From NCBI GenBank assembly GCA_002104935.1, contig MCGT01000002.1, forward strand, positions 1,449,656 through 1,513,655: a stretch of DNA of 64,000 bases, in the 5' to 3' direction. The DNA is from Hesseltinella vesiculosa (Eukaryota; Mucoromycota; Mucoromycetes; Mucorales; Cunninghamellaceae). Below the pieces are notes generated by a model that saw nothing but the letters and a program-made list of their open reading frames with translations, did not search any database and had not been told where the DNA came from. Shown here in pieces: positions 55,323 to 61,813 of the stretch (within the stretch, counting starts at the first letter, position 1; each line of letters begins with the position of its first letter). Both the position numbers and the translations under genes were made by a program.

Positions 55323-56570
55323 AAAAAATCACGTCATTTTTTTTTCCCGCATTGCATCATCATTCTTATTAAAAAAAGGGGACACCATTAGGATACTCGA
55401 TGATGAAAACTTCAGAGTGGGCTGCAAGGGGGATGGGCATATTGTTGTTGTTTTTCAGTTTCTGCCCTGAGTTGTCACGGTCGAGGAAAATGGGTTAATG
55501 AACGGGTAGCCAATGAGCGACTGGCATTTTGGTCGATGAATTCCCACGCGTTTAGGGTTGCAAAATAAAAAAGAAGAACAGCCTATTTCAAGTGAACTAC
55601 AAGCCAAAAGCAACTCACGGTGTTTTTCACTATCGAGGCGGGGCCGAGGTTTGAAAAAACAAGGGGGGGGGGGTTGCTGTCGACCTCACCTGTCGTCATT
55701 GTTTTAAATAACAAATTTCATGCAGCCTTGCGTGATACTCTATGAATCGTTTGATCGCCGCCAAGAAGTTTCCAAACCATCGCCAGACGAGCCTATCATG
55801 TCGCTTGGTTACTGTCACCCCCTCTCGTTCCTTTCCTTATTCTTGCCGTTTAAAAAGCCCCGCATGTTACACAGCCAAACCAATCGACCATCACCCGATA
55901 ACCTTTTTTTTTTATCTTTTTGTTACGCACTGACCTTACAGAAGCATCGTTCTTTGCTTTTTTTTTTTCTTTCTTGAAAACCGTCAACGCCAAAAAGAAA
56001 GAGAAAGAGAAAAAGAAGAAGAAAAAAAAAGTCAGCAGAAAAAAAGCCTCCCTGAGAAAAGAAACATTTTTATATTTACTTGGTGTTGTGACCCTAGCAA
56101 CACGAGTTGGAAAATAACATTGCTGTGTGTGAGAAAAGATGGATTTGGAATGCTTTTGCATTCTCACACAAAGAAAAAAGTGTGTGAGGTTACAAAGTGG
56201 TGAGCTGGTCTGTAGAAGGTCAGGTGTCATCATTTAAAAAAAGGGGAGGCGTGGGACTCGCCATGATAAACATGGCCAAAATAAAATACCATTGGGTTCA
56301 ACTCTGTTTTTTTAGTGTAAACAAGTGGGAAGGACGAAGTGACAGGTCAAGGGAAAAAAAAAAGAGAGACAGTCATTTTGGAAGTGTGACCATGGCTGAA
56401 GAAGACTGCCGCATGCGACTACGGCAGGTAAAGTTTTGACGCGCCAGCTGGTCATGGTTGGTGGAGACATTGAGCCAAAGAAGATGCTTCTTTTGTCAGC
56501 AAATTGCCATGGCAATAGAAGAATCCATAAAAAAAAGGACAGTCATAACTCTGCCACTTACCTGCAGTCA
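55323..56570. other. Intergenic / EF-2 upstream region
   Basis: No gene supported. Contains a C/G run (G9-10 near 55665), purine tracts, and an inverted repeat TGTGTGAGAA (56127-56136) / TTCTCACACA (56162-56171) with an inner AATGC/GCATT. A further GTGTGTGAGG follows at 56181. Confidence 0.45.
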
Positions 56571-56718
56571 AGTATAAAGAGGAGGGTCATGAGAAAAAAA
56601 TTTTCCTCTTTTTTTTTTCTCTCTCTCTCTCTTCACCCTCTCTCTCTTTTATTGCACTTTTTTTTACTTTTTCTTTTAACATCATCCCTCATCGCCATCT
56701 CTGATTCACATTAACAAG
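56571..56718 (+). promoter_or_regulatory. EF-2 core promoter and CT-rich leader
   Basis: A TATA box (TATAAAG at 56573-56579) is followed 40-75 bp later by CT-rich blocks (CTCTCTCTCTCTTCACCCTC, about 56619-56650) and then the leader to the ATG at 56719. TATA plus a CT-rich initiator is typical of highly expressed fungal genes. Confidence 0.65.
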
Positions 56719-59700
56719 ATGGGTAAGTCATGGACCTGCGGAGTACTCATGCTGCATAAACGTGGTCTAAACCACGCTTCCAATCAAACGTGTTCTGGAC
56801 CTATTTTTTACTCACTCTTCCTCTTTTATGATGCTTCTTTCCTGGTGTGCTATTTCTTGGGGGCCATCTTTTCTTTTCTCATTAGTGGTAAGTAATCCTG
56901 GTCATGTCTTGACGAAATGTCGTCAAGCAGGATGTGTGGGAAAATAAAAAAATGCTAGCCCCTCATGGTACTCAACTCTTTGTTTTATTAGAATTTTACA
57001 ATCGATGAAATCCGTGAATTGATGGTAAGTATTAGTGTCACTCTCCCCCCTGGTCCTTTGTTTTGTTGGGTGTGAAAAAAAGGAGAATGGACCCTGGGTG
57101 GTTGAGAACTTGCGCGACGTTGGTTGGCTCACTTTTTTCTATAGAACCGTACAACCAATGTACGCAACATGTCTGTGATCGCCCACGTTGACCATGGCAA
57201 GTCCACATTGACTGACTCGCTGGTATCCAAGGCTGGTATCATCTCCGCTGGCCGAGCTGGTGACATGCGATTCACTGATACCCGTCAAGATGAACAAGAC
57301 CGTGGCATCACTATCAAGTCAACAGCCATCTCCATGTACTTTGCTCTGGAACATCCAGAAGACATCAAGGAAATCAAGGACCAAAAAACCGAAGGCCACT
57401 CCTTCTTGATCAACTTGATTGACTCGCCTGGCCACGTCGACTTCTCCTCTGAAGTCACCGCTGCTCTTCGTGTCACCGACGGTGCCTTGGTTGTCGTCGA
57501 TTGTATTGAAGGCGTCTGTGTCCAAACGGAAACCGTCTTGCGCCAAGCCATTGCCGAACGCATCAAGCCTGTGCTAGTCATCAACAAGGTCGATCGTGCC
57601 TTGCTGGAACTGCAACTCAAGAAGGAAGAACTCTACAACGTAAGCTCAAAAAAATCCCCGCTTGTCGCTCCTGCTTGAGCTTTTTTTTTTTTTTTTTTCC
57701 TTAGACGTTTGCCCGTACCATTGAATCTGTCAATGTGATTATTGCCACTTACCTGGACGATGCTCTTGGTGATGTGCAAGTATACCCCGACAAGGGCACC
57801 GTGGCCTTTGGTTCTGGTCTCCATGGCTGGGGCTTCACCCTGCGTCAATTCGCCATCCGCTACTCGCAAAAGTTTGGTGTGGACCGGGAAAAGATGATGC
57901 AACGCCTGTGGGGTGAAAACTACTTTAACCCAAAAACCAAGAAGTGGTCCAAGAACAGCACTGACGCCGACGGCAACAGCCTGGAACGTGCCTTCAACAT
58001 GTTTGTGCTGGATCCCATCTTCAAGATCTTTGAGTCCATCATGAACTTCAAAAAGGAAGAAACCAAGGTCCTGCTGTCCAAGCTCAATGTTGTGCTCAAG
58101 AATGAAGAAGCCGATCTCGAAGGCAAGCCTCTGCTCAAGGTCGTCATGCGCAAGTTCCTGCCATGCGGTGATGCCCTGCTGGAAATGATCTGTATCCACC
58201 TGCCGTCGCCCATGACTGCCCAGGCCTACCGCGTGCCAAACCTGTACGAAGGCCCGGCCGACGACGAATGTGCCACTGGTATCCGCAAGTGTGATCCCAA
58301 AGGTCCTCTGATGCTGTATGTATCCAAGATGGTGCCCACCTCAGACAAGGGCCGCTTCTATGCCTTTGGCCGTGTCTTCTCCGGCACCGTGCGCGCTGGT
58401 CTCAAGGTCCGCATCCTCGGCCCCAACTACGTCCCTGGTGGCAAGGCCGACATCACCATTAAGCCTATCCAACGTACCGTGCTGATGATGGGTCGCTACA
58501 TCGAAGCCATCGACGACTGCCCAGCTGGTAACATTGTGGGCCTGGTCGGTGTCGACCAGTTCTTGGTCAAATCTGGTACCATCACCACTTCGGAATCTGC
58601 CCACAACATGAAGGTCATGAAATTCTCTGTGTCTCCTGTCGTCAAGGTCGCCGTCGAAGTCATGAACGCCAACGACTTGCCAAAACTTGTCGAAGGCCTG
58701 AAACGTCTGGCCAAATCCGATCCTTGTGTGCTGACCTACACCTCTGACTCGGGTGAACACATCGTTGCTGGCGCTGGTGAACTGCATCTGGAAATCTGTC
58801 TCAAGGACTTGGAAGAAGATCATGCCCAAGTGCCTCTAAAAAAGGGTGACCCTGTTGTGCAATACCGTGAAACCGTCACTTGTGTCTCTGAGCAAACCGC
58901 CCTGTCCAAGTCCCCCAACAAGCACAACCGTATCTGGATGAAGGCCAGCCCCATGGAAGAAATAACCTCCGTGGCCATCGAAAATGGTGACATCGGTCCT
59001 CGTGATGATCCCAAGATCCGTGCCCGCAAACTTGCTGACACCCACAGCTGGGATGTCAACGAAGCCCGACGCATCTGGTGCTTTGGTCCTGATGGCACTG
59101 GCGCCAACTTGGTATGGATAGGCTACAAAAAAAAAAAAAAAAAAAAAAGATCACATCGCAGCTGACATTTCATACTTGCAGCTGGTCGATACCACCAAGG
59201 CAGTGCAATATCTGAATGAAATCAAGGACTCTTGCGTCGCTGCCTTCCAGTGGGCTACAAAGGAAGGTGTGCTGGCTGAAGAAAACATGCGTGGCTGCCG
59301 CTTCAACATCTTGGACGTCACCTTGCATACCGACGCCATCCATCGCGGCGGTGGTCAAATCATCCCTACCACCCGCCAAGTCATCTATGCCTCGACCTTG
59401 TTTGCCAAGCCAACGCTGCAAGAGCCTATTTACCTGGTAGAAGTCCAGTGCCCTGAAAATGCCATTGGTGGCATTTACAGTGTCATGAACCGACGCCGTG
59501 GTGTCGTCATTTCGGAAGAACAGCGCCCTGGCACCCCCATGATGACCATCAAGGCTTATCTCCCTGTCAACGAATCCTTTGGCTTTGCTGGTGATCTGCG
59601 CGCCCAAACCGGTGGCCAAGCCTTCCCTCAATCTGTCTTTGATCACTGGGAACAAATGGCCAACGGTGATCCTCTGACCCCTGGCAACAAAGGTAAACCC

Positions 59701-59834
59701 TGGAAAGCCAGAAAAAAACGTCTTGCTCACTCATCCCTTTCCCCCCAGTTTACGACACTGTCCGAGCTGTGCGTACTCGCAAGGGTCTGAATCCTGATGT
59801 ACCTACCGTCGACAAGTACAATGACAAGCTCTAA
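56719..59834 (+). CDS. Translation elongation factor 2
   Basis: Exons 56719-56722, 56886-56887 (a 2-nt microexon), 56992-57024, 57145-57639, 57705-59111, 59182-59692 and 59749-59834 total 2,538 nt, 845 residues, the normal EF-2 length. The N-terminus becomes [20 protein letters not shown] only if the 2-nt exon is used. G-domain motifs: [12 protein letters not shown], the effector [18 protein letters not shown] and NKVDRA. Domain IV holds [19 protein letters not shown] with the diphthamide histidine. It ends [10 protein letters not shown]-2 is the GTPase that translocates the ribosome. Third-position C bias is strong, as expected for a highly expressed gene. Confidence 0.97.
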
Positions 59835-60400: not shown

Positions 60401-60868
60401 TGTTGTGAAATCGGCAGTTCGGCGCCCGATTCGGCCCGAATTGCCGAATAATTGTGATTGGCCATTTTCCTTTTCCCTTTTTTGTTTTTTTCTCTCTCCG
60501 CTTCCAATTCTTATTTTATTTTTTGACATCTGAACCCTGATTAAACACATCTCTTTTTGACGTTTTGAAGCGGAAGTGAAAGGTCAACAGAAAGAAGGAG
60601 AAAACCCGTACTTTTGTTCTATTCCTGCAGTCCGAAACCCTTTTCCCTATACACCCACACGTGCCGTCATATCATTTTGGTGGAGGAGAGGAGCATACAC
60701 AATTTTATTATTACAACTACCTACTGCAACAGTGACCGCACGACATCTTTTTTTCTTCTTTACACTTTTACTTCTTCGCTTCCCTTCCGAACCCCGACTT
60801 GAACCGTATACTTTTCCAGACATCTACCTCGTTTTTTTTTCTTTTTGACACTTTACATCGTACCAATC
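60401..60868 (+). mobile_element. Probable 5' LTR/leader of Ty3/Gypsy element
   Basis: Starts TGTTGTGAAATCGG, a plausible LTR 5' end (TG), and leads to the gag ATG at 60869. A 12-bp hairpin with one mismatch (60411-60422 with 60436-60447; TCGGCAGTTCGG/CCGAATTGCCGA) is right at the start. The LTR 3' end and primer-binding site could not be fixed, and the 3' LTR is outside the window. Confidence 0.45.
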
Positions 60869-61813
60869 ATGACCAACTCAATCGAATTGTACAACTTAAT
60901 TGACAAGCCCGACAGCTTCAAAGGCGACCCTCAATTGGAAAACCCAATGTTGTGGTTACGAAATATGGAAACCTGGATGGATGCCTTAGACCTAACTGAG
61001 GAACAGAGGCTCAAGGTAGCACCTACGTTTTTGAAAGGCGCTGCTGCGACCCAATATGACAAGAAAATGGAAAAGCCGGAAACGTGGGCCGCCTTCACTG
61101 CAAGATTCAAGGAAACGTTTGTGCCAAGCGACCTGGAAGAAAGTTGGCGTAGGAAGTTGGATTCCATGAAACAAGACACGTTGTCGGTCTCTGCCTTGAA
61201 ATTAGCTCTCGAAGAACTTTTCTTTCGTCTCGATATCACAAATGATAGCGAAAAGAAACGTCATTTGATTAAGTCACTAAATTGGGAACTAGCCAAGTGG
61301 GTGGAACGCAGCCGCCCTACCACCTACGACGAAGCCATTAGTTATGCCCGTCAGGAAGAAATCATCATGAGCAAATATGGCCGCACCAACCATCATGGAA
61401 GTTTGCAAAATCAAGATTATCGAGAGCAACAAGATCCTTCCCCATACTCAACTCCTATGGATCAAGAGAAACAGTGGTATCTACCAAGCCGAGATAATGA
61501 AAGCATCACTGACACGATGGACAATTTAGCCGACGCGCTCGGCAAGCTCAAGGTCCACTTCACTCCCCGTCCCACCCAAGCACCAGCGCGACGTTATCAA
61601 GTACCTCAAGATTATGGCCAACGCTATGAATCTGGTCCTTCTCGCAACACCCCACGTGGTCCATTCCAACCTTCCCGCCAACAAGGAAACGGCTGGACCT
61701 GTCACAACTGCGGCGATCCCAACCATTTTGTGCGCAACTGCCCATTCCCCCGTCAAAACCGTGGTGATCCTTACCAACAACATCAAGGTCCGGGAAAAGA
61801 CCAGGGACAATAG
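60869..61813 (+). CDS. Ty3/Gypsy retrotransposon Gag
   Basis: A 314-residue frame starting MTNSIELYNLIDKPDSFKGD. The retrotransposon-gag domain shows WLRNMETWMDALDLTEEQRL, FLKGAAATQYDKKM, TWAAFTARFKETFVPSDLEE and a C-terminal CCHC zinc knuckle (CHNCGDPNHFVRNC) followed by a basic Gln/Gly/Arg-rich tail. It forms the virus-like particle and packages element RNA. The frame is intact. Its stop is 64 nt before the open pol frame, which is in the +1 frame. Confidence 0.92.
   Translation: MTNSIELYNLIDKPDSFKGDPQLENPMLWLRNMETWMDALDLTEEQRLKVAPTFLKGAAATQYDKKMEKPETWAAFTARFKETFVPSDLEESWRRKLDSMKQDTLSVSALKLALEELFFRLDITNDSEKKRHLIKSLNWELAKWVERSRPTTYDEAISYARQEEIIMSKYGRTNHHGSLQNQDYREQQDPSPYSTPMDQEKQWYLPSRDNESITDTMDNLADALGKLKVHFTPRPTQAPARRYQVPQDYGQRYESGPSRNTPRGPFQPSRQQGNGWTCHNCGDPNHFVRNCPFPRQNRGDPYQQHQGPGKDQGQ

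Follow-up and report, generated by a model that had tools for sequence, protein, structure and literature searches.

Coding exons of a single nucleotide have been described in Arabidopsis APC11 (PMC4674806), in plant VPS55, where the GTRAGT donor following the exon is conserved (PMC8831610), and in the Fusarium gene CYP621A (PMC12940212). The account of CYP621A also mentions exons of 2-5 bp known from previous work on Arabidopsis, Drosophila and humans (PMC12940212). For the APC11 exon, intron definition combined with stepwise intron removal was proposed (PMC4674806). In filamentous fungi, work on stwintrons describes the pairing of splice sites by intron definition (PMC5639578), so that the missing exon platform of an ultra-short exon should be no obstacle in these organisms.

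The window, a stretch of 64,000 nucleotides from the mould Hesseltinella vesiculosa (Mucorales, Cunninghamellaceae), contains a gene for elongation factor 2 (EF-2), located on contig C12 and encoded on the plus strand. The coding part of exon 1 is ATGG (56719-56722), with 5' UTR upstream. It is followed by intron 1 (56723-56885), a phase 1 intron of 163 nt that runs GTAAGT...CATTAG, with the donor GTAAGT at 56723-56728 and the acceptor ATTAG at 56881-56885. The next exon is the dinucleotide TG (56886-56887), which supplies bases 2 and 3 of the Val2 codon and has a canonical acceptor and donor on its two sides, TAG/TG/GTAAGT. Intron 2 (56888-56991; 104 nt, phase 0, GTAAGT...TATTAG) has its donor GTAAGT at 56888-56893, while its acceptor TATTAG ends at 56991 and is followed by AATTTTACAATCG. 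Exon 3 (56992-57024) begins AATTTT. The in-frame codon just before the AAT at 56992 is TAG, which doubles as the acceptor, and consequently exon 3 cannot begin further upstream in that frame. The gene is completed by exon 4 (57145-57639), exon 5 (57705-59111), exon 6 (59182-59692) and exon 7 with the stop codon (59749-59834). Intron 3 (57025-57144, 120 nt) sits after the residues ELM and has no counterpart in either of the two paralogs described below, both of which read straight through GLMDKVTNVRN. Just downstream of EF-2, a 336-aa open frame (60803-61813, plus strand) ends in a CCHC zinc-knuckle-like stretch and looks, by eye, like a retrotransposon gag.

A sequence-only reading had proposed this start, and ATGG, TG, both GTAAGT donors and the ATTAG and TATTAG acceptors were all found at the positions it gave. 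The joining of ATGG, TG and AATTTT to an MVNF start was reproduced exactly, as was the length of the frame; the seven joined exons comprise 2,538 nt including the stop codon and encode an EF-2 of 845 aa. Skipping of the TG does lead to the wrong frame, the product being MEFYNR followed by a stop. The best database match was the EF-2 of H. vesiculosa itself (P0001), which has 845 aa and is 100% identical to the window product; judging by that entry, the annotators of the species reached the same EF-2 product as the spliced model. The same reading had placed the exon far below the size normally allowed for recognition. The 2-nt size stands, while the 1-nt exons of APC11, VPS55 and CYP621A show that it is not below the known minimum.

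The genome has two more close EF-2 genes, C15 (L010) and C1 (L011), with the same start anatomy. In C15, ATGG is followed by a 191-nt intron (GTAGGT...CTATAG), TT, a 132-nt intron (GTAAGT...CTTAG) and AATTTTACG. In C1, it is followed by a 242-nt intron (GTAAGA...GATTAG), TT, a 92-nt intron (GTAAGT...CATAG) and AATTTCACT. The TT exons are at the same place as the TG and also have canonical sites on either side (TAG/TT/GTAAGT), and the donor of intron 2 is GTAAGT in all three copies. Both paralogs encode MVNF, with the synonymous GTT instead of GTG as the codon for Val2, and the database protein of the C1 copy (P0023) starts MVNF, as does P0001. Another EF-2-like gene, L012 (C12:380.5-386.5 kb), was considered and set aside; it has no such start, the frame continuing from its own Met, and by its appearance it may be an EFL1/RIA1-type relative. 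The genes just upstream of the C15 and C1 EF-2 copies encode proteins that are 47% identical over 258 residues and resemble, by eye, nucleotide-sugar transporters. Together with EF-2, these paired upstream genes may have been left over from a segmental or whole-genome duplication.

Splice models of the gene start were scanned with one or two introns of at least 35 nt, GT or GC donors, AG acceptors, a start no more than 700 nt upstream, a middle exon of 1-3 nt and a product beginning M-V-NFT. Exactly one such model was obtained for the window copy, ATGG plus TG. There was also one for C1 and there were five for C15, three of which use the same TT; among the five, the model with the donors GTAGGT and GTAAGT was the obvious choice. 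The proposed 2-nt coding exon is thus supported both as the sole canonical M-V-NFT model scanned and by its recurrence in the two paralogs, where the change from TG to TT is synonymous. A direct joining of other sites that would still give MVNF had been named among the findings that would speak against it; this was looked for among the one- and two-intron models and none was present in the window copy.

The introns of the three copies were compared by global alignment, with the match counts set against those of 100 shuffles. Five of the six comparisons fell inside the shuffled range and the sixth, intron 1 of C15 and C1, was marginally above it (131 matches, shuffle maximum 130), while all six pairs scored above the shuffle mean. 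By this measure, the arrangement was kept while the surrounding intron sequence was lost. The likelihood that the sites arose by chance was estimated from dinucleotide shuffles of the intron region, with the outer 40 nt left out. YAG-TN-GTAAGT appeared in 3 (C12), 5 (C15) and 4 (C1) of 20,000 shuffles, corresponding to per-copy chance rates of 1.5e-4 to 2.5e-4. On both strands of the whole 27-Mb genome, YAGTNGTAAGT had 79 sites and the reversed pattern 487. Three of the 79 are the EF-2 sites, which do not represent three independent origins because the copies are related. Stricter patterns with seven pyrimidines before the AG, which the EF-2 sites themselves do not match, showed no excess in the genome over the reversed-pattern control at a spacing of 2 nt (3 sites, control 23), 1 nt (4, control 10), 5 nt (7, control 19) or 8 nt (3, control 16). 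When the seven candidates with 1- or 2-nt spacing were read in translation, several had an open frame across the AG like an ordinary exon, and, judged by translation alone, a tiny exon was shown for none of the seven.

The age of the exon was approached through EF-2 protein trees, the anatomy itself being compared in the three genes of this one genome and the relatives at the protein level. A careful tree of 34 rows (LG+G4, ultrafast bootstrap/SH-aLRT), 33 of them taken from the 120 proteins that were the best of 7,994 matches, was three rows smaller than a quick tree of 37 rows, which had also included a further Radiomyces entry and two fungi that are only distantly related. Both trees had 844/852 columns with the N-terminus included, and the C15 row was partial (646 aa). 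The quick and careful trees agree on two EF-2 clades. The clade that holds C12 has 10 rows (100/97) and includes members from Halteromyces, Chlamydoabsidia, Absidia, Apophysomyces, Fennellomyces and Dichotomocladium, while the one that holds C1 and C15 has 15 rows (99/98) and includes members from Absidia, Halteromyces, Cunninghamella, Lichtheimia, Circinella, Apophysomyces, Phycomyces, Radiomyces, Pilobolus, Benjaminiella and Rhizopus. A node supported at 99/98 unites both clades and leaves out the three Umbelopsis rows. A tree in which the three Hesseltinella copies were forced into one clade was 141 log-likelihood units worse and was rejected (p-AU 1.8e-51). On these trees, the EF-2 duplication lies at the base of the Mucorales sampled. 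The split-codon anatomy, present in all three EF-2 genes of the genome, is spread over the two old clades and, since these parted at that basal point, the shared 2-nt exon would most simply predate the duplication. Gene conversion between the copies could mimic great age; a recent conversion is unlikely because the introns of the copies are unrelated.

A scan of viral and genome contigs for DNA of relatives yielded no EF-2 relative. Among the database proteins, the best 120 of the 7,994 matches included 32 EF-2 entries from Mucorales and Umbelopsis. Eleven of these start MVN, eight have the NFT block behind another start, such as MNFT, MGNFT, MANFT or MPFPLQFNFT, and 13 are without the NFT block, while 73 of the remaining 88 entries start MVN. 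The frequency of non-MVN starts (21/32 versus 15/88, Fisher p = 8e-7) is a rough comparison, in which the entries were sorted by name and come from mixed pipelines, two of the 32 are Hesseltinella's own, the group of 88 is partly non-fungal and two of its 15 non-MVN entries (P0002, P0084) start MVK or MVH. For Rhizopus microsporus, one entry starts MVN and three are truncated, the protein being otherwise near-identical. Gene-finding programs easily miss an exon of this kind, and the excess is, as an indirect sign, what would be expected if they stumble over the EF-2 start of the relatives too; a 2-nt exon could explain the missing MVN start in the 21 entries, while the 11 that do start MVN count against this. 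The Umbelopsis entry P0029 reads MVDRLLLIVNFTVEEI, which would fit an intron at the phase 1 site only, ending ATAG/TN. Going by this protein alone, the Val/Asn intron may be specific to Mucorales.

Considering all of these observations, it is very probable that Val2 of EF-2 is split by two introns that flank an old, constitutive 2-nt exon and are spliced stepwise by intron definition. The spliceosome would pair the sites across each short intron, and the two introns would be removed one after the other, because the acceptor and the donor are only 2 nt apart and their joint occupancy is unlikely. We lean toward the removal of intron 1 first, in transcription order. Once it is gone, ATGGTN/GTAAGT would be like any other exon-intron junction, its donor being perfect, and the predicted spliced starts are ATGGTGAAT in C12 and ATGGTTAAT in C15 and C1. 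For the 9-nt exon of potato invertase, the second intron was reportedly removed first (told in PMC4674806), and the EF-2 introns may follow that order instead. A YTNAY scan of the last 60 nt showed that the branch-point-like sites of intron 1 are weak or badly placed in all three copies, while CTCAT, CTGAC and CTAAC were found at about -30 in intron 2 of the three copies. The poor sites of intron 1 speak against an easy recognition and may reflect a looser branch point or a slow removal of this intron. Of the earlier suggestion that recursive or coupled splicing may be needed, the stepwise removal was retained and a special recursive machinery was not, as intron definition of two short introns would suffice.

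Several other interpretations could account for this start. The whole block could be removed as a [D1,2] stwintron, giving a protein that starts MNFT without Val2. The block starts with GG, as this type must (PMC5639578), an inner intron can split the donor between bases 1 and 2 (ATG/G/GTAAGT...TAG/TGGTA), the frame remains open and the entries P0004 and P0021 of relatives start MNFT. However, this reading calls for GTGGTA as the outer donor (GTTGTA in the paralogs), which is implausible with a perfect GTAAGT 3 nt further in all three copies. Moreover, the database proteins P0001 and P0023 both retain Val2, and MVN is the start of 73 of the 88 non-Mucorales entries among the best 120 of 7,994 matches. 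We consider removal of the block as the normal route to be highly improbable; the tandem donors could still give a small amount of MNFT product. A different 5' exon is likewise highly improbable; translation would then begin further upstream or within intron 1, and the TG would either be part of a longer exon or go unused. As single-intron models, 33 donors within 56000-56964 could link an in-frame ATG to exon 3 directly, and one of them is the same GTAAGT, reached from an ATG at 56828 or 56831, but none of the 33 yields MV-NFT. The frame leading into the intron 2 donor has no Met in C15 (8 aa) or C1 (2 aa), so this route is not conserved, and the identical database protein begins MVNF.

The exon might instead be regulated, its skipping serving as an off switch for EF-2. 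The skipping products of the three copies are MEFYNR, MEFYD and MEFHYR, each followed by a stop, that is, frames of 5 or 6 codons, and the retention of either intron also leads to an early stop. Such stops, however, are readily produced when the conserved I-D/E codons are read in that frame and are therefore no sign of selection, and a perfect donor lies beside the exon in all three copies. Regulation by skipping is unlikely on this evidence. We are similarly doubtful that the exon was kept since the Mucorales ancestor because its splicing gates EF-2 output, through introns that are removed slowly and in two steps at the start codon and through skipping to dead-end mRNAs of 5 or 6 codons; if this were true, a core translation factor would have its level coupled to splicing capacity.

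If the constitutive 2-nt exon is borne out at the RNA level, an exon near the physical minimum would have been kept in a core housekeeping gene through a basal duplication. Such exons would then be stable over very long times, which would fit splicing by intron definition, and the three natural copies with unrelated introns would provide a simple test bed for the splicing of a 2-nt exon and its order. The 2-nt exon was searched for under several names and was not found in the open-access literature, which does not show that it is unpublished, and a search on EF-2, Mucorales and introns gave no title on such an exon among the matches listed.

Judged against the 1-nt cases in plants and Fusarium, this is a known kind of exon, for which the host gene and the apparent age are unusual. 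A ratchet point of recursive splicing was considered and rejected, as the 2 nt between AG and GT stay in the predicted mRNA and the introns have 92-242 nt. The Drosophila ratchet points resemble the proposed EF-2 arrangement in that acceptor and donor nearly abut and removal is stepwise, but they are described mainly in long introns and resemble 0-nt exons (PMC8605326). The [D1,2] stwintrons share with the proposed EF-2 model two short introns, stepwise removal, a block that starts GG and intron definition; a stwintron, however, leaves no coding base inside (PMC5639578), whereas EF-2 would keep 2 nt and its formal outer donor would be poor. CYP621A is also a fungal nuclear gene in which the tiny exon keeps a conserved motif in frame, is conserved over at least 20 orthologs and is wrong in automated models (PMC12940212). 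Its exon is 1 nt long, in a rarely expressed P450 of one genus, and is documented by SRA reads (PMC12940212), whereas that of EF-2 has 2 nt and occurs in three paralogs of one genome that stem from a duplication basal to the sampled Mucorales. APC11 and VPS55 have, like EF-2, an ultra-short, frame-essential coding exon between two short introns that annotation misses (PMC4674806, PMC8831610), and VPS55 shares with EF-2 the conserved GTRAGT-type donor after the tiny exon (PMC8831610). The plant exons differ in that they have 1 nt and are backed by RT-PCR or RNA-seq (PMC4674806, PMC8831610), while the EF-2 exon has 2 nt, belongs to an elongation factor of a mould, lies right behind the start codon and is predicted from DNA.
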